From the IMG/VR virus record IMGVR_UViG_3300026459_000031, positions 1 through 34,192 of that record: DNA of 34,192 bases, one strand, 5' to 3'. The translations under genes and the position numbers were made by a program. This DNA comes from a virus. Shown one piece after another: positions 903 through 21,825 of this stretch (its first letter is position 1; every line of letters starts with the position of its first letter). Below the pieces are notes generated by a model. That model had not been told where the DNA came from and searched no databases. It was given only the letters and a program-made list of their open reading frames with translations.

Positions 903-931
903 ATTGTACTGTCAGGACAGGCTGGCGTCAA
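903..931 (-). promoter_or_regulatory. Sigma70-type promoter for the 602-871 operon
   Basis: -35 TTGACG at 926-931, 17-bp spacer, -10 TACAAT at 903-908. The stop codon TGA of the upstream 48-aa gene is part of the -35 hexamer. Confidence 0.8.
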
Positions 932-1074
932 CCACGTAGACCGCGTAGATAGCTCTCACGCAGGAGCCGACGCTTTTCTTTGTAGCGTAGCTGTCTGGCC
1001 AAAAAGCCAGCAGATTCAAACCAACCTTGTAGGCAATGACGGGTTTGTCGGATACGCCTCTCTCGCATCTTCAT
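928..1074 (-). CDS. 48-aa basic hypothetical protein
   Basis: A very small gene of 48 codons plus stop, beginning MKMRERRIRQTRHCL and ending LRESYLRGLRG. It is strongly basic, with about 14 Arg. The call rests on its own consensus promoter (1100-1128), the standard AAAGGAGCGAAC ribosome site just before the ATG, and the snug fit of its TGA stop into the -35 of the next promoter. The high charge would suit nucleic-acid or polymerase binding, but that is speculation. No family recognised. Confidence 0.65.
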   Translation of the reverse strand: MKMRERRIRQTRHCLQGWFESAGFLARQLRYKEKRRLLRESYLRGLRG

Positions 1075-1099
1075 GTTCGCTCCTTTGTTTCATGTTCCA

Positions 1100-1128
1100 A
1101 TTATAGCCTCAAGCCGCGGCCCTGTCAA
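1100..1128 (-). promoter_or_regulatory. Sigma70-type promoter for the 48-aa gene
   Basis: -35 TTGACA at 1123-1128, 17-bp spacer, -10 TATAAT at 1100-1105. The -35 encodes Val-Asp in the last codons (VDRAAA) of the 1109-1435 gene. Confidence 0.85.
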
Positions 1129-1435
1129 CCAATTCTGCGTAGTCCATGCTGGGTTCAGCGTGGCGGATCATGCCCTCGTAATCCAGCTGCGACTTCTCAA
1201 ACCAGCTGAGGTAGTCATCACCTTCGATAGACCAATCGATGATGTTCTCGCGGAAGTAGTCGTCATCGCGCTCCACGCCTGCTGCTGCGACTATCTCGTC
1301 ATAGTCTGCGTTCAGAGGCACACCCAGGATCTTGTATTCTGATCCACCTTTGGCCTTCCAGTGGAATTCACCTGTGAATCCCGTGTGAGCTGCGTAGTTC
1401 TCATAGACCTGTGTACGGATTACCAGCATAGCCAT
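1109..1435 (-). CDS. Hypothetical phage protein, acidic C-terminal half
   Basis: 108 aa, starting MAMLVIRTQVYENYA. The first half is rich in aromatic and Gly residues (HWKAKGGSEYKILGV) and may be a small beta domain. The second half is acidic (VERDDDYFRENIIDW). No membrane segment, signal peptide or known catalytic motif. It is expressed from its own promoter (1465-1493) with an AAGGAGCGTGAA ribosome site. Its final codons carry the -35 of the next promoter. Family not recognised. Confidence 0.7.
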   Translation of the reverse strand: MAMLVIRTQVYENYAAHTGFTGEFHWKAKGGSEYKILGVPLNADYDEIVAAAGVERDDDYFRENIIDWSIEGDDYLSWFEKSQLDYEGMIRHAEPSMDYAELVDRAAA

Positions 1436-1464
1436 TTCACGCTCCTTGTTCTAACTATGACTCT

Positions 1465-1493
1465 AGTATACTAAATTTGGATTGGGCTGTCAA
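1465..1493 (-). promoter_or_regulatory. Sigma70-type promoter for the 1109-1435 gene
   Basis: -35 TTGACA at 1488-1493, 17-bp spacer, -10 TATACT at 1465-1470. The leader contains the recurrent CATAGTTAGAAC then AAGGAGCG. Confidence 0.85.
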
Positions 1494-1506
1494 CCAAAAA
1501 GATCAG

Positions 1507-1540
1507 AAAAAAAAGCACTGTGGCATTGCTGCAACAGTGC
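1507..1540 (-). terminator. Rho-independent terminator with GCAA tetraloop
   Basis: On the minus strand GCACTGTTGCA, loop GCAA, TGCCACAGTGC, followed by eight T. The stem has one T/C mismatch. It lies 3' of the 1574-1888 gene and shares its core with the hairpins at 4269-4296 and 13770-13785. Confidence 0.85.
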
Positions 1541-1557
1541 TTTTCAAGTTGGCTAAT

Positions 1558-1572
1558 CCGGGAGCGAATCGG
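1558..1572. repeat. 15-bp conserved 3'-UTR element, copy 1
   Basis: The minus-strand 15-mer CCGATTCGCTCCCGG sits between the stop of the 1574-1888 gene and its terminator. An identical copy occupies the same kind of position at 9717-9731. In each case it is flanked by short complementary arms that could form a larger hairpin. Confidence 0.6.
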
Positions 1573-1573
1573 G

Positions 1574-1888
1574 TTAAGCCAGTTCTGCTACCTTCTCGGG
1601 GGCAGCTTTCACAGCTTTCGGGGCCTTGGCCACTGGAGCTGGATTCTTCTTCGCGATGTACTCGATCGCGGCCTGTACAGCGGCATTGCCACTGCCGAAA
1701 CCCACACTCTTCATGTGAGCTGCGATCTCACCTTTGGTCATCGGATGAGGAAGCTCGACGAGGTCCACATCGCTGTGTCCATTCTTGTCCAGGATCTTGA
1801 TACGCATGACGTCGTTCGCGAAACGAACCTTGGTCTTGCCATTAAGGGTGCTAACACCCGCTACAGAGAACTTCTTGTCAGTTGCCAT
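1574..1888 (-). CDS. Conserved-looking phage hypothetical protein with Ala/Pro/Lys tail
   Basis: 104 aa. Residues 1-75 form a compact domain starting MATDKKFSVAGVSTLNGK, with a beta-rich first half and a helical VDLVELPHPMTKGEIAAHM segment. The last 25 residues are a low-complexity Ala/Pro/Lys tail. I recall similar small proteins in T4-like cyanophages but cannot name a function. It has its own promoter (1947-1975), a longer leader and a weaker AAAGGCAACTAAA ribosome site than its neighbours. A terminator follows at 1507-1540. Confidence 0.75.
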   Translation of the reverse strand: MATDKKFSVAGVSTLNGKTKVRFANDVMRIKILDKNGHSDVDLVELPHPMTKGEIAAHMKSVGFGSGNAAVQAAIEYIAKKNPAPVAKAPKAVKAAPEKVAELA

Positions 1889-1946
1889 TTTAGTTGCCTT
1901 TCATTGCCTAAGTTGTGTATGTAGGGACCATCCCCATCATACTGTT

Positions 1947-1975
1947 AGTGTATGATCATTTGGTTTGGCTGTCAA
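1947..1975 (-). promoter_or_regulatory. Sigma70-type promoter for the 1574-1888 gene
   Basis: -35 TTGACA at 1970-1975, 17-bp spacer, -10 TACACT at 1947-1952. The -35 encodes Val-Asp in the end (MVDSQTK) of the 1956-2162 gene. Confidence 0.75.
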
Positions 1976-2162
1976 CCATTTGATCTGCCAATCTGTCGAT
2001 CCTACAGGAGACCGACTGAGTTTCGCCAAGAGCTTGTATGAATTCATCGTCATAGACCAAGTCCTTGACTGTAAGCTCGAACAGCTCGTCGACCTTTTGG
2101 GGGTCTTCCTTGCCGTCCGAACCCAATTCCATCACTACCACCCACGCGATCTTACGACTCAT
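1956..2162 (-). CDS. Small acidic hypothetical protein
   Basis: 68 aa, MSRKIAWVVVMELGSDG at the start, then an acidic segment ending ADQMVDSQTK. The ATG at 2160-2162 lies inside the last codons of the 2152-2763 gene (11-base overlap) and is preceded by AGAAGG, which favours this start over an upstream in-frame one. It is the second gene of that operon. Its last codons carry the next promoter's -35. No family recognised. Confidence 0.6.
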   Translation of the reverse strand: MSRKIAWVVVMELGSDGKEDPQKVDELFELTVKDLVYDDEFIQALGETQSVSCRIDRLADQMVDSQTK

Positions 2163-2763
2163 CCTTCTGCCTCTCTTCGGCACCCTCGCGGATCCATTGC
2201 GTGAGCTCTTCTTCGTTTTCGCGCTCGTATTCTTCCATCTGTTCGGAGATACCAAACGCATCGTCCAAATCACTGGGCAGTTCATCACGCACCTGCTGGC
2301 TACGCATTTCGCCCAGCTCATAGTAGTCGTCATCGCCATCTTCGAACACACCAGCGTAGGCCATGCCTGGTTCATAATACATGGCTCGCACGGAGTAGCC
2401 CTGCTCGACCAACTCCTGATAAACTCCGATGGGCGGCGACCATGCTGAATCAAAATAAGCAGTCAGCGTGTTGCCATCTACCTGGGGATCTTCACATTCC
2501 ACATCCCATTTGGTGCCCCAGCGGCTGGTCTGGAAACTATACCAGTCTGTGTGTCCATACTTCTCAAGGTTGGCCTTCTGCTGTGCTTCGTGAGCCTCAC
2601 GCTGATCCTCGCCCATGAAGCCTGACACTGTGTCAGTGAGCTCTTTAGGAGTAGGAATCACATGTTGGCAGAACTCGCCTGCTTTAAGGGCCTGGGCCAG
2701 TGCTTGGATCTTAGCAGGATCCTCATGGCTGATTTCCACTGTGTTGTTGCACCAATTTGGCAT
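2152..2763 (-). CDS. Api92-like / YubB-type ferredoxin-like phage protein
   Basis: 203 aa. The N-terminus MPNWCNNTVEISHEDP is the hallmark of the Api92/DUF1281 group, whose members share a ferredoxin-like domain and occur in phages and plasmids without an assigned biochemical role. The centre (WGTKWDVECEDPQ, FDSAWSPPIGVYQEL) also fits that family. The last 60 residues are strongly acidic. It starts behind GAAGGAGCGTTCT and the promoter at 2792-2820 and overlaps the next gene. Confidence 0.85.
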   Translation of the reverse strand: MPNWCNNTVEISHEDPAKIQALAQALKAGEFCQHVIPTPKELTDTVSGFMGEDQREAHEAQQKANLEKYGHTDWYSFQTSRWGTKWDVECEDPQVDGNTLTAYFDSAWSPPIGVYQELVEQGYSVRAMYYEPGMAYAGVFEDGDDDYYELGEMRSQQVRDELPSDLDDAFGISEQMEEYERENEEELTQWIREGAEERQKDES

Positions 2764-2791
2764 AGAACGCTCCTTCAGTTAATGATAGTGT

Positions 2792-2820
2792 ATTTTACTT
2801 GCTCTGTTTCAATTTGTCAA
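2792..2820 (-). promoter_or_regulatory. Sigma70-type promoter for the 2152-2763 gene
   Basis: -35 TTGACA at 2815-2820, 17-bp spacer, -10 TAAAAT at 2792-2797. The stop TAA of the upstream gene forms the first half of the -10 box, and its last codons (LVDKLKQSK) span the -35 and spacer. Confidence 0.8.
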
Positions 2821-3010
2821 CCAAATACTGATTGGCCAAGTTCTGATCCACCCGATCCACAAACTTCTGCTCGATCTCACGTGATGCTCGATCAGCGATC
2901 TGGCTCAGGGTCCTCAGTATCTTGGCCGCGCCCATGGCTGTAGTCTCTGGATCGTCCAGTGCGTCCAGAGCGCGACGCATGTAGTCTAGTTCTTCTCGTT
3001 TAACGGCCAT
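2795..3010 (-). CDS. Small helical hypothetical protein
   Basis: 71 aa starting MAVKREELDYMRRALDALDD, predicted all-helical and charged, with no known motif. The chosen ATG at 3008-3010 overlaps the end of the 3000-3188 gene by 11 bases and lacks an obvious ribosome site, so translation is probably coupled. A start at the internal ATG (MRRALDALDD) is possible. Its final nine codons double as the promoter of the following gene. Confidence 0.55.
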   Translation of the reverse strand: MAVKREELDYMRRALDALDDPETTAMGAAKILRTLSQIADRASREIEQKFVDRVDQNLANQYLVDKLKQSK

Positions 3011-3188
3011 AATAGTCTGCGTTACGCAGTCCCAATGTGCCACACCACATGATCGCGCAGCCAACCGCGCTGACCAACACACCGTAAAGCAGTCCCATGT
3101 CGTCCATGCTCTGCTCCACACCGCCCACGCCAAATGCTGTCAACAGCAGTCCGACCATGAACACAAACATTGATGCTTTCTCTGACAT
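3000..3188 (-). CDS. Small two-span membrane protein
   Basis: 62 aa starting MSEKASMFVFMVGLLLTAFG, with two hydrophobic segments at about residues 7-24 and 33-50 and a short polar tail. The open frame continues upstream through the promoter and leader, but the ATG at 3186-3188 behind AAAAGGAGCGCGAT is the correct start because the promoter (3219-3247) lies between. Such small inner-membrane proteins are common among early phage genes. Role unknown. Confidence 0.65.
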   Translation of the reverse strand: MSEKASMFVFMVGLLLTAFGVGGVEQSMDDMGLLYGVLVSAVGCAIMWCGTLGLRNADYYGR

Positions 3189-3218
3189 ATCGCGCTCCTT
3201 TTGTTTAACTATGCCCAT

Positions 3219-3247
3219 ATTATAGCAATTTGGGCCCAGGCTGTCAA
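3219..3247 (-). promoter_or_regulatory. Sigma70-type promoter for the 3000-3188 gene
   Basis: -35 TTGACA at 3242-3247, 17-bp spacer, -10 TATAAT at 3219-3224. The leader carries CATAGTTAAACA then AAAGGAGCG. Confidence 0.9.
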
Positions 3248-3283
3248 CCAATTTTTTCAACTTTTTTTCTTCAATGATTTCAA

Positions 3284-3544
3284 TTAGTTATGTCGGATGT
3301 ACACAGCAAAACGATTAGCATCCTGCTTCCAAGTACGGCTTTGATCCCTGAAACGCCCACGTGGACCTCTGTAGATCGTCTCAGTGCGCAGCTTGAGACG
3401 CTTCATGAGAGCTCGCACACGATCCAGGTGCTCCATGGGAATATCATGGAAAAGGCTAGCCCTGCCCTGGCCCGAAGCATACTGATTCAGGAAGTCCTGA
3501 TCCTGTTGGCTGAGGCAGAAGAACAGGAATTTGTCCACGATCAT
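3284..3544 (-). CDS. Hypothetical basic phage protein
   Basis: 86 aa starting MIVDKFLFFCLSQQDQ. The C-terminal part (YRGPRGRFRDQSRTWKQDA, then NRFAVYIR) resembles a short module, YRGPR followed by DA-FAVY, that I recall from T4-like phage hypothetical proteins. Function unknown. The ATG overlaps the upstream TGA (ATGA, 3541-3544), so the pair is probably translationally coupled behind the promoter at 3821-3849. Confidence 0.65.
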   Translation of the reverse strand: MIVDKFLFFCLSQQDQDFLNQYASGQGRASLFHDIPMEHLDRVRALMKRLKLRTETIYRGPRGRFRDQSRTWKQDANRFAVYIRHN

Positions 3545-3795
3545 CCCCAATCTTTGAAGCAGCCAGCGGCAGTGTTGTCGTTGTAGCCCTGGTTGTATTC
3601 GGTCACTGACGCACAATCAGAGACTTCAACACGGGGACCTGAATCACCGCCAACTCCACCGTAGTGAGGATTACGGCGACGGCCATAGTATGAGTCTGCG
3701 GATCCACGATCATACAAGCTGCCGTGTTGCTTGCGATCGAACTGCCAACCCTTGAGGATCCCTACCACACGCTCTCTTTCACCTTGTTCGTACAT
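3541..3795 (-). CDS. Hypothetical Gly/Tyr-rich protein
   Basis: 84 aa. The first 20 residues (MYEQGERERVVGILKGWQF) could be a helix. The middle is rich in Gly, Tyr, Asp and Arg (YYGRRRNPHYGGVGG) and looks unstructured, and two Cys occur in the last third. No known domain. Its start follows AAAGGAGCGAAT, and its own promoter sits at 3821-3849. It is the first gene of a pair with 3284-3544. Confidence 0.65.
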   Translation of the reverse strand: MYEQGERERVVGILKGWQFDRKQHGSLYDRGSADSYYGRRRNPHYGGVGGDSGPRVEVSDCASVTEYNQGYNDNTAAGCFKDWG

Positions 3796-3820
3796 ATTCG
3801 CTCCTTTAAGTTATGTCAGT

Positions 3821-3849
3821 AGTATAACAGCAGTTGCGCCTGCTGTCAA
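3821..3849 (-). promoter_or_regulatory. Sigma70-type promoter with inverted-repeat spacer
   Basis: -35 TTGACA at 3844-3849, 17-bp spacer, -10 TATACT at 3821-3826. A perfect inverted repeat ACAGCAG / CTGCTGT (3827-3833 and 3840-3846) fills the spacer and reaches into the -35. Confidence 0.85.
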
Positions 3850-3854
3850 CCAAT

Positions 3855-4049
3855 TTAATCCATGTTGACCTTAGGGTCTTTCTTTAGGCCCTTGTGATGC
3901 GCATCGCTCACGCACACAGCCTTGGCGGTCAGGCGATCCGCGGCCACTTCCCGGGCTGCAGCAGCGCAGCTTTTCTCGGTGGGGAAGGGCACTACGACCT
4001 TGTCTACATAGGTAGGTCCCTGATACAGCGCGATGATCAGCCAAAACAT
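3855..4049 (-). CDS. Small hypothetical protein with hydrophobic N-terminus
   Basis: 64 aa starting MFWLIIALYQGPTYVDK. The N-terminus is hydrophobic but short; the rest (FPTEKSCAAAAREVAADRL, then AVCV) has two Cys that could pair if the protein were exported. This resembles small Cys-containing phage proteins of the DUF1482 kind only loosely. It overlaps the upstream gene by one base (TGATG) and shares its promoter at 4210-4238. Confidence 0.6.
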   Translation of the reverse strand: MFWLIIALYQGPTYVDKVVVPFPTEKSCAAAAREVAADRLTAKAVCVSDAHHKGLKKDPKVNMD

Positions 4050-4183
4050 CAGCGGATCTCCACAGCAGCAATCTCACGGGGATCCAAGCGGAACTGTTCC
4101 CAGACCAAGCAAGCAGCACGGAAATCACGTGCGACCACATCGTAAGCTACACCCGAATCCATTACAAAGCGATAGCGTTTCAT
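4049..4183 (-). CDS. 44-aa hypothetical protein
   Basis: A tiny gene reading MKRYRFVMDSGVAYDVVA at the start and ending REIAAVEIR. There are two candidate ATGs behind GGAGCAA. The first (ATGAAATGA) ends after two codons, so the second at 4181-4183 is used. Support comes from the ribosome site, the promoter at 4210-4238 and the TGATG junction with the next gene. The FRAACLVWEQFRLDP segment is likely helical. No family recognised. Confidence 0.65.
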   Translation of the reverse strand: MKRYRFVMDSGVAYDVVARDFRAACLVWEQFRLDPREIAAVEIR

Positions 4184-4209
4184 TTCATTTGCTCCTTTGT
4201 TGTATCCCT

Positions 4210-4238
4210 AATATAGCAGCAGCAGCAGTTGCGGTCAA
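4210..4238 (-). promoter_or_regulatory. Sigma70-type promoter for the 44-aa gene
   Basis: -35 TTGACC at 4233-4238, 17-bp spacer, -10 TATATT at 4210-4215. It is weaker than most in the block at both boxes. Confidence 0.75.
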
Positions 4239-4262
4239 CCAAAAAAACAGGCACCCTGAAAG

Positions 4263-4296
4263 AAAAAAGGGACTGTGGCATTTCTGCAACAGTCCC
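4263..4296 (-). terminator. Rho-independent terminator with GAAA tetraloop
   Basis: Minus strand GGGACTGTTGCA, loop GAAA, TGCCACAGTCCC, then TTTTTT. The 12-bp stem has the same single T/C mismatch as the terminator at 1507-1540. It closes the 4578-4739 / 4312-4581 transcript. Confidence 0.9.
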
Positions 4297-4311
4297 AAGT
4301 ACCACCCACTA

Positions 4312-4581
4312 TCAAGCGCCGCTATAGTCGTAATCGTCGTAGTCCGGCTCATAGGGTTCATCGTCGTCTTCAACGATTGAGAGGCCCAAGCTGATGATCA
4401 CGTCTTCTACTTCAGTGATCGACACACCCAACTGATCTGAAATCATCTGGATAGCCTCGCGATCTGTCCCGTAAAGGCTGACAAGATCCATAACCTCGTC
4501 CTCAAGCATGGGACCATCCTCGTCAACCATGACTCCATCATCATCATACATCGGATCTTCGAAAGTCTTCATATAGCTCAT
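4312..4581 (-). CDS. Highly acidic hypothetical protein
   Basis: 89 aa with roughly one third Asp/Glu, starting MSYMKTFEDPMYDDDGVMV. The middle (DREAIQMISDQLGVSITEV) could be a short helical or HTH-like segment, and the end is an Asp/Tyr/Glu tail. DNA mimicry is possible for so acidic a phage protein but unproven. The ATG overlaps the stop of the membrane protein gene upstream (ATGA). A terminator follows. Confidence 0.7.
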   Translation of the reverse strand: MSYMKTFEDPMYDDDGVMVDEDGPMLEDEVMDLVSLYGTDREAIQMISDQLGVSITEVEDVIISLGLSIVEDDDEPYEPDYDDYDYSGA

Positions 4582-4739
4582 TGACCTGCCTCCTTGACAG
4601 TTTTGGATGCCTCTTTGGCCACTTCGGTAACCAAAGCCTTACCCTGGGTTGAAATGAAATTAACCGTGCCTGTGACCAAGTTGATAACAAACATTGGTGC
4701 CAGGATGATTAGCGCGATGATTACAATCCATTTTGCCAT
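4578..4739 (-). CDS. 53-aa single-span membrane protein
   Basis: Reads MAKWIVIIALIILAPMFVIN, one N-terminal hydrophobic segment at about residues 4-24, followed by a Lys/Glu/Ala/Thr-rich helix facing the cytoplasm or periplasm. The start follows AAAGGAGCAACT and has a consensus promoter at 4766-4794. It is coupled (ATGA) to the acidic 89-aa gene, so the two products may act together. Role unknown. Confidence 0.7.
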   Translation of the reverse strand: MAKWIVIIALIILAPMFVINLVTGTVNFISTQGKALVTEVAKEASKTVKEAGQ

Positions 4740-4765
4740 AGTTGCTCCTTTACGAAAGTAAGTGT

Positions 4766-4794
4766 ATTATACAAGAACTTTGGGTTCCTGTCAA
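4766..4794 (-). promoter_or_regulatory. Sigma70-type promoter for the 4578-4739 operon
   Basis: -35 TTGACA at 4789-4794, 17-bp spacer, -10 TATAAT at 4766-4771. The stop TGA of the 4791-5009 gene lies in the -35. The spacer holds an imperfect inverted repeat (ACAGGAAC / GTTCTTGT). Confidence 0.9.
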
Positions 4795-5009
4795 CCAAAG
4801 AATAATCCCACAACATAGATCACGAGCAGCCCGCCATTGATCGCCACTAGATTCCATTCACGGATTCTCAGCGACCAAATCAAGTACAGCAGCGCACCTG
4901 AGTTGAGAAGATAGATGTTAAGGGGATCGATGCGCAGTGAAGTACACAGCGCACCAGCGAGAGTGATAGCACAAGCTATCCATTTGAGGTAAAAGTTCGT
5001 ATCCTTCAT
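4791..5009 (-). CDS. Small multi-span membrane protein, probably leaderless
   Basis: 72 aa, MKDTNFYLKWIACAITLAG at the start, with three hydrophobic stretches at about 8-24, 30-46 and 53-71. Similar short membrane proteins (a LNIYLLNSGALLYLIWS-type core) are familiar from T4-like cyanophages, with no known role. Only seven bases separate the -10 box (5017-5022) from the ATG and no ribosome site is present, so the mRNA is likely leaderless. The stop TGA lies in the next promoter's -35. Confidence 0.75.
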   Translation of the reverse strand: MKDTNFYLKWIACAITLAGALCTSLRIDPLNIYLLNSGALLYLIWSLRIREWNLVAINGGLLVIYVVGLFFG

Positions 5010-5016
5010 AGTCCGT

Positions 5017-5045
5017 ATTCTAGACTATTTTGGACAGCTTGTCAA
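5017..5045 (-). promoter_or_regulatory. Sigma70-type promoter giving a leaderless mRNA
   Basis: -35 TTGACA at 5040-5045, 17-bp spacer, -10 TAGAAT at 5017-5022. Transcription would start at or next to the ATG at 5009. The stop TGA of the 5042-5458 gene lies in the -35. Confidence 0.8.
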
Positions 5046-5458
5046 CCGTTTTTTGGAGAAGAAAGAGAGATGTTGTTTTTCTGCAACAGTTCACGTAGCA
5101 CAGCAGCTTGATCCCCACTGACCGTGTACTTGGCAGCTTTGAACCGTGAACGCAGCTTGTCTACCAGCTCGTGGAAGTCGGCACCCTGCGCCATGAACTG
5201 GCCGTCTTCATCGTCGTAGAGGAAATAGATCCCATCGTGCTGCTCGATGCGCAGCTGATAGACGGGGAGATCGTCCTCGTCGTCCTCTTCTTCGTTCCTG
5301 AGGAAGTCCAGGGCTTTCTCACGCAGCTCTTTGCGTTTAGTGTCTGTGTCCACGCCCAGTTCTTCTAGTGCGTCGCGCAAGTTGGCTTTGAATACGATCT
5401 TGCTGACTACCCATCCTGCGTAAGCACCTGCCAGCCATGCTATGATTAATTCAATCAT
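5042..5458 (-). CDS. Membrane-anchored hypothetical phage protein
   Basis: 138 aa. Residues 1-22 (MIELIIAWLAGAYAGWVV) form one membrane segment. Residues 25-60 are a charged helix with a Glu/Asp run. Residues 65-105 (LRIEQHDGIYFLYDDEDG, then FMAQGADFHELVDKL) look like a small alpha/beta domain that I recall from T4-like phage proteins. Role unknown. It follows the 5467-5703 gene by a few bases behind TAGGAGCGAAG and has no promoter of its own. Confidence 0.7.
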   Translation of the reverse strand: MIELIIAWLAGAYAGWVVSKIVFKANLRDALEELGVDTDTKRKELREKALDFLRNEEEDDEDDLPVYQLRIEQHDGIYFLYDDEDGQFMAQGADFHELVDKLRSRFKAAKYTVSGDQAAVLRELLQKNNISLSSPKNG

Positions 5459-5466
5459 CTTCGCTC

Positions 5467-5703: not shown

Positions 5704-5713
5704 ATGGTTTTAT

Positions 5714-5731
5714 TTACGTGATCAGGGTCAT
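5714..5731 (-). other. Five-codon upstream mini-ORF
   Basis: ATG ACC CTG ATC ACG TAA follows GAAAGGACG at ideal spacing in the leader of the 5467-5703 gene and stops 10 bases before that gene's ATG. It may couple translation to the downstream start, or it may be chance. Confidence 0.35.
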
Positions 5732-5808: not shown

Positions 5809-5810
5809 AC

Positions 5811-8935: not shown

Positions 8936-9565
8936 TTACAACACCTTGACGTAGTTCAGTTGTGCTGTGTTGTCCGGACGAAGTGCCTTGACCTTGGCCT
9001 TCACCCGCAGCTCCCCGGCTAGCTCCTTGGAGAACCAGAAGTCCACGAAGCTTTCGTTGAGCCGTGCCTGGATGCGGTACTTGCCGAAGTTAGGATTGTA
9101 TCGCGAGCTGATCACTGTGATGTCCCCTATCACAGTTTCACCTACAGCAGCAGCGAGAGGCTGGGCGGAATAGATTTCTCGCTTGAGTTCTGTGCGCTCC
9201 TGATCACGGACAGCCACGGAAGGCAAGCAGCTGATCACGCTGAAGTCATAAAGATCTCGCCCCGTGAACTCTTCCTTAGCAGCTAACTTCATGGCCGTGG
9301 CTTGGAAGTCATTGAGCTTGCCCGCCAGGGCCAACAGCGTGTAGGATTTAAAGTGATCCCGAGCAGTGCGACCAGCAGCGTAGTCGACTTCAGTGACCTG
9401 GGTGAAATCGTTGTCGCGGAGCCATTGCTTGACCATAGCTTTGTTGGCTCGCTTGTCCAGCACATAGCCGTCATCTGTGTAACGGCCTTTGTCCTCTTTG
9501 AGATACTCACCGTTGATACGTTGAGCAGCGGCTGCGGCACCCCAAACTTGATCTGCTGTGAACAT
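8936..9565 (-). CDS. Hypothetical phage protein, possible beta-barrel C-terminus
   Basis: 209 aa starting MFTADQVWGAAAAAQRING. Residues 1-110 are mainly helical with a segment YVLDKRANKAMVKQWLRDND. Residues about 140-209 (IGDITVISSRYNPNFGKYR, ending LNYVKVL) look like a small beta barrel such as an OB fold. That hints at nucleic-acid binding but no signature is decisive. Own promoter at 9596-9624 with ACAGGAGCGAACT before the ATG. The stop codon falls in a small 8-bp hairpin (8925-8944) that lacks a T run. Confidence 0.7.
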   Translation of the reverse strand: MFTADQVWGAAAAAQRINGEYLKEDKGRYTDDGYVLDKRANKAMVKQWLRDNDFTQVTEVDYAAGRTARDHFKSYTLLALAGKLNDFQATAMKLAAKEEFTGRDLYDFSVISCLPSVAVRDQERTELKREIYSAQPLAAAVGETVIGDITVISSRYNPNFGKYRIQARLNESFVDFWFSKELAGELRVKAKVKALRPDNTAQLNYVKVL

Positions 9566-10321: not shown

Positions 10322-10571
10322 GGAATTCTAACTCCTTAGGTTCTCCGTCTTCTTCTTTAGCTGCTGGAATCACGTAGGGATCCGCAGGAATCAGACGATT
10401 GATTGCTCGGGCAGACTTCACGGCACTGCCCCCGATATAGACTCTGCTGTAGTGTTCCTGACAGTAGGCCTTGCCCGGGATCACGGCACTGCCGCATGTG
10501 AACAGGTTCTCGTGATCCCTGATTGGGTCCTTGTCGGGCCCAATCCATTGACAGGTGTGGAATAGCATCAT
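10314..10571 (-). CDS. Small protein with GcrA-like Cys/His zinc motif
   Basis: 85 aa. The pattern CQW (residues 7-9), then FTCGSAVIPGKAYCQEHYSR, has three Cys and a His spaced as in the C-terminal zinc-binding part of GcrA, the alphaproteobacterial cell-cycle regulator that binds sigma70 and DNA. GcrA's N-terminal HTH is absent, so this is a fragment-like relative at best. Two adjacent ATGs (10571, 10568) overlap the ATPase stop (ATGA). Cotranscribed with the AAA+ gene. Confidence 0.5.
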   Translation of the reverse strand: MMLFHTCQWIGPDKDPIRDHENLFTCGSAVIPGKAYCQEHYSRVYIGGSAVKSARAINRLIPADPYVIPAAKEEDGEPKELEFHV

Positions 10572-11638
10572 TGCCCCCTCTTCATTACAGTGACTTCAGC
10601 CATGCTCTGCCAGCTGTCCGGAAAGCTCTTGCGCAGGTCTGCCACTTTGAGCACCGTACGCAAGCTCAGCTCACGCATCTTAGCACGATTGCCAATCACA
10701 TATTCGATGATCTCGTCGCGCTCGTTGCCTTCGAAGTCATAGGTATCCAACATGCCGTCCTGTACGATCTGCTTGATACGAAGCACCTTCTCACGATCTG
10801 TGTCCATCTGGAGATCGATGTAGTGGCAACGGCTTTCAAGAGCAGCCAAGTGATCCTGTAGCTTTTTACTGCGCACGTTCTCGAACTTGATGTTAGTAAT
10901 GAAGATCGCACCTGCTTTAAACTCAAACTTGTCAGGCACTCCTTCGTTACGTAGCACACGGCTGTCAGTGTTCCACGAAATGGTACGCTTCTTGCTGGAA
11001 TCCAGTGCGGCCTTGAGGATGTTCAAGCTGAGATCGTCAAGCAGTACAGAGTCGCAGTCATCGAACACGATAACGTTACCTTTCTCTGAATACTTGTAGA
11101 GCTTGGCGTACAGGCCTACCGCAGACATCGCGCCTTTGACCACTTCGTACTTGGGTCGGCGATTGCCCAGGGTGTTGAACAGATCTTCTTTAGACAGTAC
11201 TTCTTCTACGCCAAAGGATTTGCCCACACCCGGAGGACCCGTCACGATCATAGCACGTACAGTACCTTCTTTGACTGCCTGTGTCATGTGCTTGAGCACT
11301 TCAAAACGGCCACGCAGTCGCTCGATGATCTGCTCATCGGTTTCATGTGCGACTACTTCATCGCTGACTTTGATCTGCTCCAAACTTTTGTCTCCTGCGG
11401 GTGTAGCTGGCACACCGCTGACGACTACGTAGCTTTGTGCTGACGAGCAACGGATACGGATTGAACGATCTGGGATACCAGCGTTCTTTGGGTAGACTGA
11501 GCCACCTGCTACAGTTACATAGCCACCGTTGGCACCCTCACGATATTGTTCCACGAGCTCGAAACGGTTACCCGCCATGGACACTTCTTGCCCACGGATC
11601 TTATAGGTACCTTCGCGCATCTCGATGATTGCTGGCAT
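10568..11638 (-). CDS. AAA+ ATPase
   Basis: 356 aa. Residues 1-90 form a non-ATPase N-terminal domain starting MPAIIEMREGTYKIRGQEV. The AAA+ core has Walker A GPPGVGKS (134-141) and Walker B VIVFDDCD (189-196), then FITNIKFENV as a likely sensor region and an ESRCHYIDL segment. Family members in T4-like phages are annotated simply as ATPases. It lacks a helicase or clamp-loader signature I can name. Own promoter at 11674-11702, ribosome site TTAGGAGCGACA, heading a three-gene operon. Confidence 0.85.
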   Translation of the reverse strand: MPAIIEMREGTYKIRGQEVSMAGNRFELVEQYREGANGGYVTVAGGSVYPKNAGIPDRSIRIRCSSAQSYVVVSGVPATPAGDKSLEQIKVSDEVVAHETDEQIIERLRGRFEVLKHMTQAVKEGTVRAMIVTGPPGVGKSFGVEEVLSKEDLFNTLGNRRPKYEVVKGAMSAVGLYAKLYKYSEKGNVIVFDDCDSVLLDDLSLNILKAALDSSKKRTISWNTDSRVLRNEGVPDKFEFKAGAIFITNIKFENVRSKKLQDHLAALESRCHYIDLQMDTDREKVLRIKQIVQDGMLDTYDFEGNERDEIIEYVIGNRAKMRELSLRTVLKVADLRKSFPDSWQSMAEVTVMKRGQ

Positions 11639-12108: not shown

Positions 12109-12137
12109 ATTATACAGGGCTTAGGGTGCCCTGTCAA
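12109..12137 (-). promoter_or_regulatory. Sigma70-type promoter with inverted-repeat spacer
   Basis: -35 TTGACA at 12132-12137, 17-bp spacer, -10 TATAAT at 12109-12114. A perfect 7-bp inverted repeat ACAGGGC / GCCCTGT spans the spacer (12114-12120, 12128-12134). Confidence 0.9.
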
Positions 12138-13311: not shown

Positions 13312-13339
13312 ATTATACAGCCTCTGCGGGCAGTGTCAA
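13312..13339 (-). promoter_or_regulatory. Sigma70-type promoter for the 13030-13284 gene
   Basis: -35 TTGACA at 13334-13339, spacer 16 bp (one of two exceptions to 17), -10 TATAAT at 13312-13317. The stop TGA of the GIY-YIG-like gene is in the -35. Confidence 0.88.
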
Positions 13340-13665
13340 CCAAAATCGCCTCGCACATCTGTGTTTAAATTTGGGCGCACCTCACGGCGTATACGTACTT
13401 CTTCTCTGTGTGCCTCAGCCTTGCCGCGTATCACAGCATGTACTATGATGGTGATGTCTTCTTTGTTCGCGACAGTCCGCAGTGCGCGACACAGGGCCCA
13501 ATCTTTGTTCTCGCTGTGAGCACGATAGAAGTGCTTGGCAGCACGAGCGCGGACGCTTTTGTTAACAGTGCTCTCTGTCTTAGCTGTCACGCCGATGTAG
13601 TTGCCCTGGGGTACACGCAGCTCGTAGATGATGTGGTTTCTGTCTGTTCGTTTAGCTCGTGCCAT
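13336..13665 (-). CDS. GIY-YIG-like nuclease domain protein
   Basis: 109 aa. HIIYELRVPQGNYIGVTAKT supplies the two short strands of the GIY-YIG fold (IIY, YIG). RARAAKHFYRAH follows at the usual place for the catalytic Arg, and AHREEVRIRREVRPNLN resembles the Glu-containing last helix ending in P-LN. Members are small endonucleases, often homing or repair enzymes. Activity is not certain. The start at 13663-13665 follows GAAGGAGCGAACG. Own promoter at 13688-13716. Confidence 0.65.
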   Translation of the reverse strand: MARAKRTDRNHIIYELRVPQGNYIGVTAKTESTVNKSVRARAAKHFYRAHSENKDWALCRALRTVANKEDITIIVHAVIRGKAEAHREEVRIRREVRPNLNTDVRGDFG

Positions 13666-14035: not shown

Positions 14036-14127
14036 GAACAGTGGTGGGCCCAGTAGGATTCGAACCTACAGTCAACGGATTATGAGTCCGCTGCTTTAAC
14101 CGTTAAGCTATAGGCCCAACACTGTTC
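14036..14127 (-). other. Extended acceptor stem of the pre-tRNA
   Basis: Bases flanking the tRNA (14036-14050 and 14113-14127) are complementary over 15 positions with one mismatch, extending the acceptor stem by eight pairs beyond the CCA end and sequestering CCA in the precursor. It may guide RNase processing of the transcript. Confidence 0.6.
14042..14117 (-). tRNA. tRNA with CAT anticodon (Ile2 or Met)
   Basis: A 76-base cloverleaf with encoded CCA. Acceptor GGGCCTA / TGGGCCC, D stem GCTT / AAGC, anticodon stem GCGGA / TCCGT with loop CTCATAA, five-base variable loop, T arm GTAGG TTCGAAT CCTAC. The CAT anticodon reads AUG, or AUA if C34 becomes lysidine. The GG-CC start, TAGCTTA and AGCAG arrangement resembles bacterial tRNA-Ile2 more than elongator tRNA-Met, but this cannot be settled by eye. 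It begins eight bases after the stop of the 14126-14410 gene and is probably cotranscribed from 14637-14665. Confidence 0.95.
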
Positions 14128-14687: not shown

Positions 14688-14974
14688 AGTGAGAGAACCG
14701 TGGAAAGAGGATCAAGAATGGTCAAAAACGGTGGTGAGAATGGTGTCATATGATTCAAAAACGTGGGAAATGGTGCCGCACAGTCATGGCCAAACGATTC
14801 AAACGATGGTGGTTTTGGAGGTATGCTAAAAATGGTCCCCACCCGTTTTCCACCGTTTTCCACCGTTTTCCACCCTTCTCCCACCGAGTCTTCTCGGCTC
14901 CGCACAGTCACTGCCAGCGTACACACACTATCCTTCGCAGCGGGGCCTGTGCCCTTAGCTCTTTTAAATACTGT
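14688..14974. other. Strand-switch region without a convincing gene
   Basis: Separates the leftward early block from rightward genes. Frames cross it on both strands but none has a ribosome site or coding-like composition. It contains iterated CCGTTTTCCA units on one side and related AAACGGTGG-type words in inverted orientation on the other (about 14723-14820), plus two copies of GCAGCGGGGCC at its borders. It could be an origin or regulatory region. Confidence 0.5.
14843..14872 (+). repeat. Three tandem 10-bp iterons CCGTTTTCCA
   Basis: Three perfect head-to-tail units, with a degenerate continuation (CCCTTCTCCCA). Each unit contains TTTTCCACC, one to two bases from a DnaA-box-like TTATCCACA. 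Confidence 0.8.
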
Positions 14975-16748: not shown

Positions 16749-17291
16749 ATGATCTCAGCAGGTGACATACTGATAGCACCTCCAGGCCTGCCCGACAGTC
16801 GTTTTTCAGAAACTGTGATCTATCTTTGGGAACACAGCCTCAAGGGTTCAGCGGGCGTGGTACTAAACAGGCCCTCTACCAACACCATACAGGAAGTCTG
16901 CTCAGATGTAGTCGAACACATAGGCAGTCACTGCCTCTATTGGGGTGGCCCTGTGCTGCCCAACATAGTGTTCATGCTACACAGCGCAGAGTGGAGCACG
17001 GTCAAGACACAGATCATAGACCCCCAGATCGCTGTGACTTCAGACAGTGAAATGTTCCTGCGTGTCAGCGAGCTACAGCCCATGTATTGGCGAGCATTCT
17101 TTGGACACTCGGGATGGGCCCCAGGACAGCTAGAGGGCGAGCTGAGAGGACAAGAGCCCTGGCGATCCGAACAAAGCTGGCTGGTATGGCATGAACCCCC
17201 TGCGGAGTGGCTGTTCGAGTGCCCAGAAGACGACATGTGGCAAAGCGCCATAGATCACTGCCGCAGCCAAGCAGTGGCCAGTTGGTTCTAA
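16749..17291 (+). CDS. AlgH/YqgE family protein (UPF0301)
   Basis: 180 aa, covering the whole family. GDILIAPPGLPDSRFSETVI and EHSLKGSAGVVLNRPS at the start, YWGGPVLPNIVFMLH in the middle, and GHSGWAPGQLEGEL near the end are the recognisable family blocks. AlgH/YqgE proteins are widespread in proteobacteria; AlgH was named for effects on alginate and the molecular role is unresolved. It starts three bases after the previous stop. It is convergent with, and touches, the leftward gene at 17288. A phage-borne copy is unexpected. Confidence 0.9.
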   Translation: MISAGDILIAPPGLPDSRFSETVIYLWEHSLKGSAGVVLNRPSTNTIQEVCSDVVEHIGSHCLYWGGPVLPNIVFMLHSAEWSTVKTQIIDPQIAVTSDSEMFLRVSELQPMYWRAFFGHSGWAPGQLEGELRGQEPWRSEQSWLVWHEPPAEWLFECPEDDMWQSAIDHCRSQAVASWF

Positions 17292-17551: not shown

Positions 17552-17775
17552 TTGCTAACCTTTCTATACCATTGGGGGTCTATCATTTCCAGCAGTGGAC
17601 CCAAACGACTGGGCGCCACGCTGGCATATTCGTTACCGTCTACACATTCGATCACGTCATGTCTCAGTGTCAGAGCAGCCACACTATCATAAAAGGCTCT
17701 CAATCGATCGTGCTGTGTCTGTAGGTCTTCTAGACGAGCCTGCGTGTCCGAAGCTACTACCATCCAATCTGTCAT
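17548..17775 (-). CDS. Small hypothetical protein
   Basis: 75 aa starting MTDWMVVASDTQARLEDLQT, with a helical coiled-coil-like first half and DVIECVDGNEYASVAPSRLG after. No signature. Third gene of the ligase operon, one base after the 17777-18001 gene, and overlapping the membrane-protein gene downstream. Confidence 0.6.
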   Translation of the reverse strand: MTDWMVVASDTQARLEDLQTQHDRLRAFYDSVAALTLRHDVIECVDGNEYASVAPSRLGPLLEMIDPQWYRKVSK

Positions 17776-17776
17776 G

Positions 17777-18001
17777 CTATTTTCCTCTCAGGTGATCTAC
17801 GACCATGGCCTTGGCCCTAGAATCTAGATCCTGCCGTTCAGCTTCACGCAGTGCGTCACCAAACAGATTGACTAGATCTATGACTGCTCGTTCACCGTCG
17901 GCAGTCAGCTTGCCTCGATAATAGTCTTGGAAGTAGCGAGGGTCGCGCATGATGCCGCGTAGTCCTCCTACCAAGCCAAGTTCCAGAGCCTTGACCTCCA
18001 T
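17777..18001 (-). CDS. Small hypothetical protein
   Basis: 74 aa starting MEVKALELGLVGGLRGIMRD, all helical (DGERAVIDLVNLFGDALREA). Its ATG overlaps the ligase TGA by one base (TGATGG), so translation is coupled to ligase. It might be a ligase-associated factor, but nothing in the sequence shows that. Family unknown. Confidence 0.65.
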   Translation of the reverse strand: MEVKALELGLVGGLRGIMRDPRYFQDYYRGKLTADGERAVIDLVNLFGDALREAERQDLDSRAKAMVVDHLRGK

Positions 18002-19317
18002 CAGATCTTTTCGCCTCGCTTGAATCCACGGAATCGCATGAACCTTGGGAATCGCAGGCTGTAGCTGCCATCTTGATTCTGCGTGATCGCGTCCGCACGT
18101 ACTTCTACCAATTGACCAGGCAGAGTATCACGGTTAGCCCAAAACTCAGTTCGATTAGCGTCGCTAAAGCCACTACCAACATTGACGGCAATCTGCTTCC
18201 CGTCGTCGAGTCCGGAGCAAACGAAAGCTCCAAGTCTTCCCACGTTTCTACCAGTACCTTCTTCAACATCTTTGACCTCCAAAGTAACTTCGATAAAGGG
18301 TTTCTGCTTGAGCCAACTGACTGTTCTTTTGGTTTCGTATGGCGCATCGGGATTCTTGATCATGATGCCTTCGTAGCCCTTTTCGATGATCTGCTTGTTG
18401 TAGTCTGAGAACAAGATACGTCCCACAGCAGTGTCTAGATCCACTTCAGTCTGCTCGATGATATCGATGTTGCCGCAGAGATCAAACACGGGTTTGAAAG
18501 ATTTAAGCAAATTGCTACGGCGTCGTTGACCCATGATCGAAGTACCACTTTTAAATTCTGACAGCGGAACAATATCAAACAGCATCAGTCGTGCGTCCTG
18601 TGCCTGTACATCTTCTTTGCGATGTACCTGCTTCATGAGATCCTGGAAGCTGGCACTAACCACTTCACCGTCTAGCACATAGCTTCGGCCCAGCTCGTCG
18701 ATACGAGACAGCAGTGCTGCCGTGATGTGACTGAAGTTTTCTAGAACTTTGCCGTTGCGTGTGAACTGTGTGACAGTACGAGCTTGATAGTCTACCACGG
18801 TCAAACAGCGAACACCGTCCAGCTTGGGCTCTAGCAGTTTGACTCCTGCGATCTTTTTTTCGTGATTGGCACCATCGTGGGCCAATTGGCATTCAAACAC
18901 GGGCACACTGTACTCTGGGCGATTCTGCTTATCTGCTACACTGTTAACGGTCTTTTCGGAAACGCCACAGCGCAGGTCCTTGATAAGGATACGTCGATAC
19001 CAATCGTTCCATTGTTCCTTGGTAGCCACATCCATGGCCAGTTTGATAGCATCACGGGCATCATGCCCTGTGAGCGCACGAGTACGCAGGCTTTCAGCCA
19101 ATTGCGTGAAGCTGGCCCAATCAAGACCCTGTCCATCTGCCTTGCTCACAGGCACTTGCTTGACACCAAATGTATGTAGTTTGTCCAGAGCCCAACGCAC
19201 ACCATCAAAGAACTCATCTAGATTCTCGTTCATGGCCTTGGCCAAGATCACTTCTTTAGCCAAACGACTGTTATCTGCTTCTAGCTGTTGGATGATAGTC
19301 TGTGGTTGTGTTCGCAT
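18001..19317 (-). CDS. ATP-dependent DNA ligase
   Basis: 438 aa, like T4 gp30 in layout. The N-terminal helical domain covers about 1-150. The adenylated Lys lies in EPKLDGVR (163-170, K165), followed by motif III VLDGEVV, motif IV EGIMIK and motif V WLKQKP, then an OB-fold domain. It seals nicks in phage replication and repair. The ATG at 19315-19317 with AGGAG five bases before is preferred to the GTG at 19323, which abuts the ribosome site. Head of a four-gene operon; promoter at 19346-19374. Confidence 0.95.
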   Translation of the reverse strand: MRTQPQTIIQQLEADNSRLAKEVILAKAMNENLDEFFDGVRWALDKLHTFGVKQVPVSKADGQGLDWASFTQLAESLRTRALTGHDARDAIKLAMDVATKEQWNDWYRRILIKDLRCGVSEKTVNSVADKQNRPEYSVPVFECQLAHDGANHEKKIAGVKLLEPKLDGVRCLTVVDYQARTVTQFTRNGKVLENFSHITAALLSRIDELGRSYVLDGEVVSASFQDLMKQVHRKEDVQAQDARLMLFDIVPLSEFKSGTSIMGQRRRSNLLKSFKPVFDLCGNIDIIEQTEVDLDTAVGRILFSDYNKQIIEKGYEGIMIKNPDAPYETKRTVSWLKQKPFIEVTLEVKDVEEGTGRNVGRLGAFVCSGLDDGKQIAVNVGSGFSDANRTEFWANRDTLPGQLVEVRADAITQNQDGSYSLRFPRFMRFRGFKRGEKI

Positions 19318-19345
19318 GGTCACTCCTAACTGTTAATATACATGT

Positions 19346-19374
19346 ATTATAGCACAGCAGAAACCCTTTGTCAA
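19346..19374 (-). promoter_or_regulatory. Sigma70-type promoter for the DNA ligase operon
   Basis: -35 TTGACA at 19369-19374, 17-bp spacer, -10 TATAAT at 19346-19351. The stop TGA of the 19371-19715 gene lies in the -35. Confidence 0.92.
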
Positions 19375-19715
19375 TCAAGGCGACTGATCTGTAAGTCTTT
19401 GATTTTAATAAGACTTTCCACGTAATCTATGACGTTTTGGCTGCGTGTATCGCGGATCCATTCGCTCAAGGCCCTGATCTCAGCACAGCGTTTGACTTTG
19501 AAATGCTTGAGTACTTCTCTTTCTAGCCAGCGTATCTCTTGTTCTTCGCCCACCCATGTGGCTTCAAACTGAAACGGATAGTCGGGCCCTATGGCCTGTT
19601 GATAATCACAGCTACGACTGTCTAGGCTTTTGGCGATGCCTATCTTGGCTGAACAGCGACCAGTCAGTTCCTGTAAAGGTTTGAGTGTTTCAAACGTATA
19701 GAGATTATAGGACAC
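19371..19715 (-). CDS. GIY-YIG / T5orf172-like domain protein
   Basis: About 114 aa. YNLYTF and CSAKIGIAKSLDSRSCDYQQ stand for the GIY and YIG strands with the following Arg. EIRWLEREVLKHFKVKR, then EIRALSEWI, matches the E-LE---H-F----GE-F- helix of T5orf172/MUG113 nuclease-like domains. There is no ATG. GTG at 19713-19715 after CAAGG is the best start, with TTG at 19733 possible; both overlap the end of the upstream gene. The stop is in the ligase promoter's -35. Confidence 0.65.
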   Translation of the reverse strand: MSYNLYTFETLKPLQELTGRCSAKIGIAKSLDSRSCDYQQAIGPDYPFQFEATWVGEEQEIRWLEREVLKHFKVKRCAEIRALSEWIRDTRSQNVIDYVESLIKIKDLQISRLD

Positions 19716-20811
19716 GATTGACAGCCTTGCCAAAGTCTACGCTAGACGGAATAGGAATAGTCTTGTTCATGTATTTGTTAGCGAGGTAAGCCAACCCATA
19801 CATGACCTGATGATTGTGTTTATGAGCACCTTCTCCGTCTGTGATTTCGCTGTAGGCATCTTTGATAAAGTCGTCCGCGAACTCGATGATATTCCACCGA
19901 TTCTTCAGTATGGTAGCCAGCTGATCCTGATCAGCTTTAGACCAAGGTGCTTTGTTCCTAGCAGTTTCTCTGTTCATGAGTAACCCAAAGCTGGCGCTGA
20001 GGCAGGGATCCACGGTTTCGTTGGGCCAATGTTCCTTCCACCAAGACAGAGCTGTGTTTAGAGCAGTACCATTCTTGTCCAATTCCCAAAGGAAATGTAC
20101 GTCATTTAGATTGTGTACGGTCATGCCTGCGTTGGCATCCTGTTTGACTTTGAACCCTAATGGATCGATCACATTATGGATGCTGTATTCTGGTTCCTGT
20201 TTTTGTACCACAGCGATACGATAGATGTCGAACTTGCTGGGCTTCTTGACATTTTTAGAATTAAGGCTGAGAAAGATTTCTCCAGCTATTTCGATAGCTA
20301 ACTGTAGTGTATCTTGGAAACTGCCTTGATCTGGGATGTCTGTGATTTCAAAAGGCAGATAGTCGTCGCCTCTGAGAATGCGTGTGACAGAAGTGTGTCC
20401 CGAATCCGCAGGCAACACGATGCTGCCGTATACTTCAGGCAGTCTAACACCTTTGCCGGAACGAGCGCAGGGCTCAAAGTAATGATTAAAGATATTGATC
20501 ACATTACCACAATAGGTGTTGCGTTGGAACATCCAGTGTGTGAACACAGTGGATTTGTGTATGAGTATACCGCTAGTGGAAGTCATGTTGATAGCAGAAT
20601 ACTTATTGCCCAAAGGACTAGTGATCTTGTTCTGTATCATGATACCCACGCCGTCGGCGATATCGGTCAAAGGCACCAATCCGTGTTCATAGTTAGCAGA
20701 CATCTCCTCGATGTCAAGGAACACATTGGTTAGTGTAAAAGGATGCTTAAACTTTGACTTGTAAGCAGTCAGCTTCTGCTGCTTTACAAATGATTGGTTA
20801 AGTCTAGCCAT
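19705..20811 (-). CDS. Uncharacterised 368-aa phage protein, ParB-like possibility
   Basis: Starts MARLNQSFVKQQKLTAYKSK. Residues about 130-180 (LPADSGHTSVTRILRGDDYL, then LPFEITDIP) and 200-225 (EIFLSLNSKNVKKPSKFDIY) recall ParB/DUF6551-type phage proteins, which have a DGxH-R core, a FL-LN segment and then a helical domain. The key D-G-Q-H-R residues are not intact, so function is unknown. Promoter at 20844-20872 with a weak -10; the ribosome site is poor. Confidence 0.6.
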   Translation of the reverse strand: MARLNQSFVKQQKLTAYKSKFKHPFTLTNVFLDIEEMSANYEHGLVPLTDIADGVGIMIQNKITSPLGNKYSAINMTSTSGILIHKSTVFTHWMFQRNTYCGNVINIFNHYFEPCARSGKGVRLPEVYGSIVLPADSGHTSVTRILRGDDYLPFEITDIPDQGSFQDTLQLAIEIAGEIFLSLNSKNVKKPSKFDIYRIAVVQKQEPEYSIHNVIDPLGFKVKQDANAGMTVHNLNDVHFLWELDKNGTALNTALSWWKEHWPNETVDPCLSASFGLLMNRETARNKAPWSKADQDQLATILKNRWNIIEFADDFIKDAYSEITDGEGAHKHNHQVMYGLAYLANKYMNKTIPIPSSVDFGKAVNRVL

Positions 20812-20843
20812 AGCTCAACTTTCTGTTAGTTGCGATAATTTAA

Positions 20844-20872
20844 AATGTAACGGATTTTGTATTATTTGTCAA
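20844..20872 (-). promoter_or_regulatory. Sigma70-type promoter for the 368-aa gene
   Basis: -35 TTGACA at 20867-20872, 17-bp spacer, -10 TACATT at 20844-20849. The stop TGA of the Dam gene lies in the -35. Confidence 0.7.
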
Positions 20873-21789
20873 CCTGGCAGATCTAGTCCGGTGTAGAGAT
20901 AGCCAATTTGGGCGGGCTCTGCGAACACGAAAAGATCTGAAGGATTAGAATAGTTGCGTATCAGTATCTCTTCGCCCTTGCTTTTGGTAGCATAGTCTGC
21001 GTCATTGCCCGAACGAGTGGCAGCAGAGCGATAGACGCTTTGCCTATGCCAATTGAACTGTGATTCTGGATACCAAGTACGCAGGTCTTCGAAATCATAA
21101 TAACTGAGAGCGAACTTACCTTCTATATTGGCTAGTGTGTCTGCCAATTCTTTGTGTTTGTCTCTAGGAAAGTCTTGGCTGTAATAGAACTCCATGCTGT
21201 GATAAGGAGGATCTACGTAAAAGAATGTATCAGGACTGTCGTATTTCTTTATGACATCGATACAGTCTAGTTTCTCCACAGCAGTGATAGCTGAAAGCCT
21301 ATCCGTGATCCTATGATCAGACAGCTTGCGTTTTAATGTATCATATTTGCTAGGATACTTGCCACCTGCTTTGGTTTCTGTGAAGTAAGGCACATTGTTA
21401 GCACTAAGCGGTGTACCTGCGAATACCTGTGTCTGTAAGTAAAGATATTTGACAGCTAGATCATAGTCGCCTAGGATAACAGTTTGCCAATCTAGATCCA
21501 CGAACAGTTCTTTTTGATACTGTCTATATAAGTTGATATCGCTCTTGGGAGTGGCATTCATCAGGCTCAGTACCCTGGCATGATCCAAACGAAAACATTC
21601 GAACACATTGGCTAACAGTGGATTATAGTCGTTGTAGTAACGATCTTTGGCCCATGTGCCTACGTTCTTGCTTTTCACAGAGACCCACCCTGCTCCACCG
21701 AACACTTCTACAAAGATAGAATAGTTCGATGGAAACAGAGGATCCATCCATTTAATATGATGAGCTTTGCCGCCTATATATGGAAACAT
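20869..21789 (-). CDS. D12-class DNA adenine-N6 methyltransferase (Dam type)
   Basis: 306 aa. MFPYIGGKAHHIKW supplies the N-terminal PYxGGK motif, VEVFGGAG (28-35) the SAM-binding motif and DPPY (193-196) the catalytic motif, in the order typical of D12-class enzymes. It methylates adenine in a short DNA target, probably to protect phage DNA or mark replication. The target cannot be told by eye, though GATC is common in this class. The ATG lies six bases after the -10 box with no ribosome site, so the mRNA is probably leaderless. Confidence 0.92.
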   Translation of the reverse strand: MFPYIGGKAHHIKWMDPLFPSNYSIFVEVFGGAGWVSVKSKNVGTWAKDRYYNDYNPLLANVFECFRLDHARVLSLMNATPKSDINLYRQYQKELFVDLDWQTVILGDYDLAVKYLYLQTQVFAGTPLSANNVPYFTETKAGGKYPSKYDTLKRKLSDHRITDRLSAITAVEKLDCIDVIKKYDSPDTFFYVDPPYHSMEFYYSQDFPRDKHKELADTLANIEGKFALSYYDFEDLRTWYPESQFNWHRQSVYRSAATRSGNDADYATKSKGEEILIRNYSNPSDLFVFAEPAQIGYLYTGLDLPG

Positions 21790-21795
21790 ACACTA

Positions 21796-21825
21796 ATTAT
21801 ACAGTCGCTAAGACACGACCGTCAA
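21796..21825 (-). promoter_or_regulatory. Sigma70-type promoter for Dam, leaderless
   Basis: -35 TTGACG at 21820-21825, spacer 18 bp, -10 TATAAT at 21796-21801, six bases before the ATG. The stop TGA of the HNH gene is in the -35. Confidence 0.8.

Follow-up and report, generated by a model that had tools for sequence, protein, structure and literature searches.

Stop codons within the -35 boxes of a sigma70-type promoter array in an uncultivated large phage

The DNA analyzed here, a viral contig of 34 kb in IMG/VR, comes from an uncultivated large phage (record IMGVR_UViG_3300026459_000031, 34,192 nucleotides, the whole of which is referred to as the window), and it carries an array of sigma70-type promoters, several of which overlap the ends of the genes that precede them. 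Most genes from about position 200 to 22,400 lie on the minus strand, and a sigma70 promoter scan tolerating up to 2 mismatches found 36 sites on this strand versus 3 on the other. By inspection, 27 of the scanned sites were retained as canonical sigma70 promoters of the form GGTTGACA-N17-TATAAT; in many cases the leader after them contains GTTTAAC and the ribosome site AGGAGCG. The TTGACA and TATAAT boxes, the spacing near 17, the position upstream of genes and the strand specificity are as in host sigma70-type promoters, and the promoters would fire early via the host sigma70. The region strings together small, probably early phage genes. The functions given to promoters, genes and hairpins throughout are predictions from sequence.

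A co-directional upstream gene is present at 24 of the 27 promoters (Table 1). Seven of these genes stop at the TGA contained in the -35 box, four cross the box in the frame that reads Val-Asp, none uses the Leu-Thr frame and 13 stop upstream of the promoter, which shows that the overlap is common in the window, but not universal. An earlier note on this DNA had listed the seven TGA stops, and all seven were confirmed: each lies at offset +1 of a minus-strand TTGAC box, with a -10 box 16-18 bases further on. The three Val-Asp cases named there were also correct, and the gene at 213-410 is now added as a fourth. The note had further called for a count against a codon-shuffled control, and here stops in TTGAC context were expected 1.23 +/- 1.11 times in the window compared to the 7 observed, a number reached by none of 2000 shuffles (maximum 6). 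Relatives of the protein encoded at 5042-5458 were sought in IMG/VR and none were found.

Table 1. Genes and predicted promoters at junctions of the window. C-termini are given up to the stop codon.
Feature	Position	Strand	C-terminus or promoter sequence	Remarks
Gene, 48 aa	928-1074	minus	LRG	stops at -35 TGA
Promoter	903-931	minus	TTGACG-N17-TACAAT	serves gene 602-871
Gene, 72 aa, DUF6552-like	4791-5009	minus	GLFFG	stops at -35 TGA
Promoter	4766-4794	minus	TTGACA-N17-TATAAT	serves gene 4578-4739
Gene, 138 aa	5042-5458	minus	SPKNG	stops at -35 TGA
Promoter	5017-5045	minus	TTGACA-N17-TAGAAT	serves gene 4791-5009
Gene, 109 aa	13336-13665	minus	NTDVRGDFG	stops at -35 TGA
Promoter	13312-13339	minus	TTGACA-N16-TATAAT	serves gene 13030-13305
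Gene, 114 aa	19371-19715	minus	ISRLD	stops at -35 TGA
Promoter	19346-19374	minus	TTGACA-N17-TATAAT	serves DNA ligase gene 18001-19317
DNA methyltransferase gene, 306 aa	20869-21789	minus	LDLPG	stops at -35 TGA
Promoter	20844-20872	minus	TTGACA-N17-TACATT	weakest (2 mismatches in -10); serves gene 19705-20811
HNH endonuclease gene, 170 aa	21822-22334	minus	DYLNT	stops at -35 TGA
Promoter	21796-21825	minus	TTGACG-N18-TATAAT	serves methyltransferase gene 20869-21789
Gene	1109-1435	minus	LVDRAAA	crosses -35 in Val-Asp frame
Promoter	1100-1128	minus	TTGACA-N17-TATAAT	serves gene 928-1074
Gene	1956-2162	minus	MVDSQTK	crosses -35 in Val-Asp frame
Promoter	1947-1975	minus	TTGACA-N17-TACACT	serves gene 1574-1888
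Gene	2795-3010	minus	YLVDKLKQSK	crosses -35 in Val-Asp frame; TAA stop coincides with the start of the -10 box TAAAAT
Promoter	2792-2820	minus	TTGACA-N17-TAAAAT	serves gene 2152-2763
Gene	213-410	minus		Val-Asp frame; traverses the entire promoter at 262
Promoter	234-262	minus	TTGACA-N17-TATAAT	contained in gene 213-410
Insulated junction (contrast)	1465-1550	minus		terminator-like hairpin and T-run, then promoter at 1493
Gene	8936-9565	minus	NYVKVL	ends 38 nt before its own promoter; most relatives end at -35 TGA

A scan with the protein encoded at 10568-11638 yielded 80 related viral loci, with 65-100% identity in that protein. Genes were called in them with a home-made caller (hexamers, ribosome site and dynamic programming), and the promoter scan of these relatives did not require a TGA, only a start downstream. 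Altogether, 525 distinct promoters were found in the 80 loci; the spacer is exactly 17 bases long in 501, TTGAC is present in 518 and each G of the GG preceding the -35 box in more than 80%. In a relative of 353 kb the promoters are clustered, with 28 of 46 sites lying within about 30 kb. Of the 525 promoters, 433 follow a gene in the same direction, and the stops of these genes peak at offset +1 (66 genes, the -35 TGA) and again at +17 (48 genes, the Val-Asp frame).

Since orthologues repeat the same junction, junctions were grouped by upstream and downstream protein family into 172 types. In 113 of these, or 66%, the gene stops before it reaches the -35 box and there is no overlap; the stop falls on the -35 TGA in 26, in the Val-Asp frame in 27 and in the Leu-Thr frame in 6. 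When the first stop was computed for each frame at every promoter, the TGA frame offered one at +1 in 99% of cases, whereas by the end of the -10 box the Val-Asp and Leu-Thr frames had done so in 43% and 19%. The share of the TGA frame among overlapping types (26/59, 0.44) agrees with the 0.40 expected from this availability (p=0.51) and falls below expectation if long overhangs are disallowed (p=0.04), which argues that no special stop-codon strategy is at work. An apparent preference for the TGA frame over all genes (p=0.003 versus 1/3), in which orthologues were counted repeatedly, was set aside because it vanishes at the junction level against availability.

The overlap leaves a clear mark on the proteins. 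A C-terminal Gly is found in 68% of the junction types with the stop in the -35 TGA compared to 4% where the gene stops before the promoter (p=6e-17), and the tails of 66 of the 71 genes that use the Val-Asp frame contain this dipeptide. The gene end also acts on the promoter, with TGA and TGG in a ratio of 20:6 at the spacer codon at +17 in the Val-Asp frame versus 31:44 elsewhere (p=0.003), and the GG before the -35 box appears to be retained less often at TGA-overlap junctions (0.68 versus 0.80). Influence between promoter and gene end therefore goes both ways.

Three protein families illustrate how far this influence reaches. In the family of gene 13336-13665, RGD is the terminus in all 28 distinct relatives without the promoter and in 11 with the stop upstream of it, while the overlapping members end in RGDFG in the window, RGDG in L112, RGDELTA in L117 and RGDALTA in L134. 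Five relatives scored as overlapping still end in RGD; in L102, L149 and L170 the -35 box sits on the native GAT-TGA stop, with a -10 box downstream and the protein unchanged, and the overlap calls in L146 and L163 look like false promoter calls. In the 8936-9565 family, the stop of about 30 of 36 members is the -35 TGA, with VKxxG or VKRA where the window copy has VKVL, and the TTQLNYVK-like core is retained with differences confined to the last 1-3 residues. The methyltransferases, each at its own promoter, have four tails unrelated to one another, LDLPG in the window and VVDK, YNA and KQG in three relatives. The promoter thus writes a short, non-conserved tail, and the conserved cores end just before it. 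This supports the claim of the earlier note that the promoter dictates how these proteins end as far as the terminal residues are concerned, but not beyond a short tail. Likewise, its expectation that the C-termini of orthologues would follow the promoter holds for the tails, which differ where a promoter is missing or lies at a greater distance; the conserved cores stay the same.

Of 74 junctions with a gap of at least 40 nt, 48 carry a terminator-like hairpin (2.6 expected from shuffling), compared to none of 71 overlapping junctions, indicating that the overlap marks read-through junctions. Spans of 40-130 nt are preserved as leaders and terminator gaps. Pairs of junctions that share only the upstream gene show an identity of 0.81 just before the -35 box and of 0.40 in the spacer (background 0.29), while for pairs in which just the downstream gene is shared the identity is near background in the spacer and climbs in the leader, so that homology switches within the promoter. 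Such a switch is as expected if promoters were the joints of module exchange.

Some spacers also contain hairpins. Arms of at least 6 were found in the spacers of 23 of 452 promoters versus 7 expected, and arms of at least 8 in 7 of 452 versus 0.1 expected. Inverted repeats that fill the spacer occur in the window at 12109-12137 and 3821-3849 and in the relatives L034, L053, L057, L058 and L011; their arms differ and their loops are often TTCG or GCAA, as in TTGACAcgggcttcggcccgtgtTATAAT. Their form suggests an RNA hairpin or a weak terminator superimposed on the promoter. TTTGG-like blocks (TTGACAgtTTGGacagtTTGGtgcTATAAT) are common to many spacers of the relatives and may represent an operator or have a structural role.

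We consider it likely that the arrangement has a mechanical origin, in which promoters are packed against gene ends in early cassettes resembling the promoter-early stem-loop (PeSL) cassettes of T4-type phages and no special stop-codon mechanism is involved. Most small genes would have their own strong sigma70 promoter, GGTTGACA-N17-TATAAT with a short leader, abutting the end of the preceding gene, and in one frame or another the nearly fixed -35 box always provides a TGA. Where no terminator separates the genes, the upstream reading frame could enter the promoter. In one frame it would stop immediately at the -35 TGA, with GGT (Gly) usually the last codon; in the GTT-GAC frame it would gain Val-Asp and stop mostly within the spacer or the -10 box; the third frame (Leu-Thr) would be seldom used. 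The likeness to PeSL cassettes would lie in the terminators at about two thirds of the wide-gap junctions, in the spacer hairpins of a minority of promoters, and in an exchange of neighbors in which homology switches at the promoter; in this scheme the hairpins would act on RNA and the junctions would be made by recombination at the promoters.

Some of our results weigh against this explanation. Promoters, starts and genes are all predicted, the genes of the relatives with a caller of our own making. When upstream families are counted once, TGA accounts for 21 of 41 (p=0.02 versus 1/3), so that the TGA frame may be weakly preferred. Leu-Thr-frame ends make up 6 of the 59 overlapping types where about 19 would be expected (p=2e-4), a depletion beyond stop availability showing that the frames are not simply neutral; these ends are probably rare because that frame mostly stops beyond the -10 box, near the transcription start.

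The excess of TGA ends among upstream families could be taken as a sign that the sharing of stop and -35 box was selected to save space, making the promoter consensus a standard gene terminator, and the "extreme compaction strategy" of the earlier note was of this kind. About 60% of junction types do stop within 14 nt of the promoter or inside it, and the exact overlap is kept among diverged members of the 8936-9565 family. However, two thirds of junction types show no overlap, the share of the TGA frame is what its availability predicts, the window copy of this best-conserved case lacks the overlap, and the long leaders and terminator gaps are retained, so that compaction as such appears quite unlikely. 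The opposite direction, in which the TGA stop comes first and a promoter arises on it, since a gene end of the form T-TGA-CA is already most of a -35 box, has a somewhat better, though still low, probability. It would explain the three or more relatives of gene 13336-13665 in which RGD is followed directly by the stop as GAT-TGA-CA. Against it, the overlap mostly comes with an altered tail and the Gly provided by the GG of the promoter, and the conserved leader and spacer are cassette features that a bare stop does not provide. That the TTGACA-like words occur at gene ends by chance and have no promoter function is hardly credible: the -35 box does include a common trinucleotide stop and the site at 20872 has a weak -10 box, but 122 of the 145 TTGAC stops in the 80 loci are followed by a -10 box at 16-18, and neither the strand bias, nor the nearly fixed spacer, nor the excess over shuffled codons would be expected. 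Finally, the -35 box may, through the TGA and GG it contains, itself be a selected seam between exchangeable gene modules, which we regard as unlikely. If so, recombination at the box would swap the downstream gene, the upstream gene would always keep a usable stop in one frame and acquire a short benign tail in a second, and swaps would rarely yield read-through fusions.

The closest known system is that of the PeSL cassettes of the T4-type phages RB49 and phi1 (Arbiol et al. 2010, Genome Biol Evol 2:140, as referenced in PMC4177764). They reportedly also consist of strong sigma70-like promoters between small genes, with terminator hairpins at some and an exchange of neighbors that switches at the promoter; effective termination and encapsidated minicircles reportedly belong to them as well. 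The array described here differs in the GG extension of its -35 box and in its nearly invariant 17-base spacer. The same scan of the annotated first 50 kb of RB49 found 21 promoters with an upstream gene, where most stops lie 3-24 bases before the -35 box, some of them at -3 to -12, and one lies exactly in its TGA (coding sequence ending at 36982, promoter at 36985). An annotated early promoter of RB49 lies within the end of gene 43, and several spacers hold hairpins, such as TTGACGgggatcgcgagatccccTATACT. The stop in the -35 TGA of RB49 is an identical case and shows that the arrangement is not unique to the present group, though it is commoner here: RB49 has it at 1 of 21 promoters and the window at 7 of 24, and it holds for 26 of the 172 junction types. 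The start-associated sequence of Cluster K mycobacteriophages is known as a translation-start motif and not as a sigma70 promoter. It resembles the present array in recurring immediately before many small phage genes (PMC3203893). In SPP1, the promoter PE5 sits inside gene 24.1 and likewise overlaps the coding sequence before it (PMC6316719), but this is a single promoter, unlike the dozens of junctions with one consensus described here. A literature search for stop codons overlapping a -35 box returned nothing relevant, although a differently worded description may exist.

The window has no nucleotide match to known phages, and its protein matches in named phages are distant, with the ATPase at 53% to PA5oct-like phages. 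The stretches around that ATPase gene in PA5oct and in Sinorhizobium phage Phosso lack a dense promoter array, and both were dropped as comparison genomes for this reason. Elsewhere in the window, a tRNA-Met gene (CAT anticodon) at 14042-14117 lies at the end of the promoter array, and short tandem repeats of CCGTTTTCCA at 14835-14885 lie between the minus-strand array and plus-strand genes. A plus-strand open reading frame of 1509 aa at 26418-30947, in a region without these promoters, is rich in Gly and Asn, repetitive and fibre-like. Host-like metabolic or accessory genes at 24634-25812, 32001-32705, 30944-31537, 16749-17291 and 23214-23843 comprise, in this order, a class I/II aminotransferase (possibly a 5-aminolevulinate synthase), a fatty acid desaturase, and QueC-like, AlgH-like DUF179 and ClpP/head-protease-like proteins.

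Here, we describe a well-documented new example of the overlap of promoters and gene ends in phages, one with an ordinary cause and no new mechanism. It provides a counted example, drawn from many genomes, of regulatory DNA writing the C-termini of proteins in uncultivated large phages, and it calls for caution, as a terminal Gly or Val-Asp that looks conserved in these proteins reflects the promoter and not protein function. The pattern of a TGA within the -35 box marks both gene boundaries and start signals in unannotated contigs, and may thus aid gene prediction and promoter mapping.

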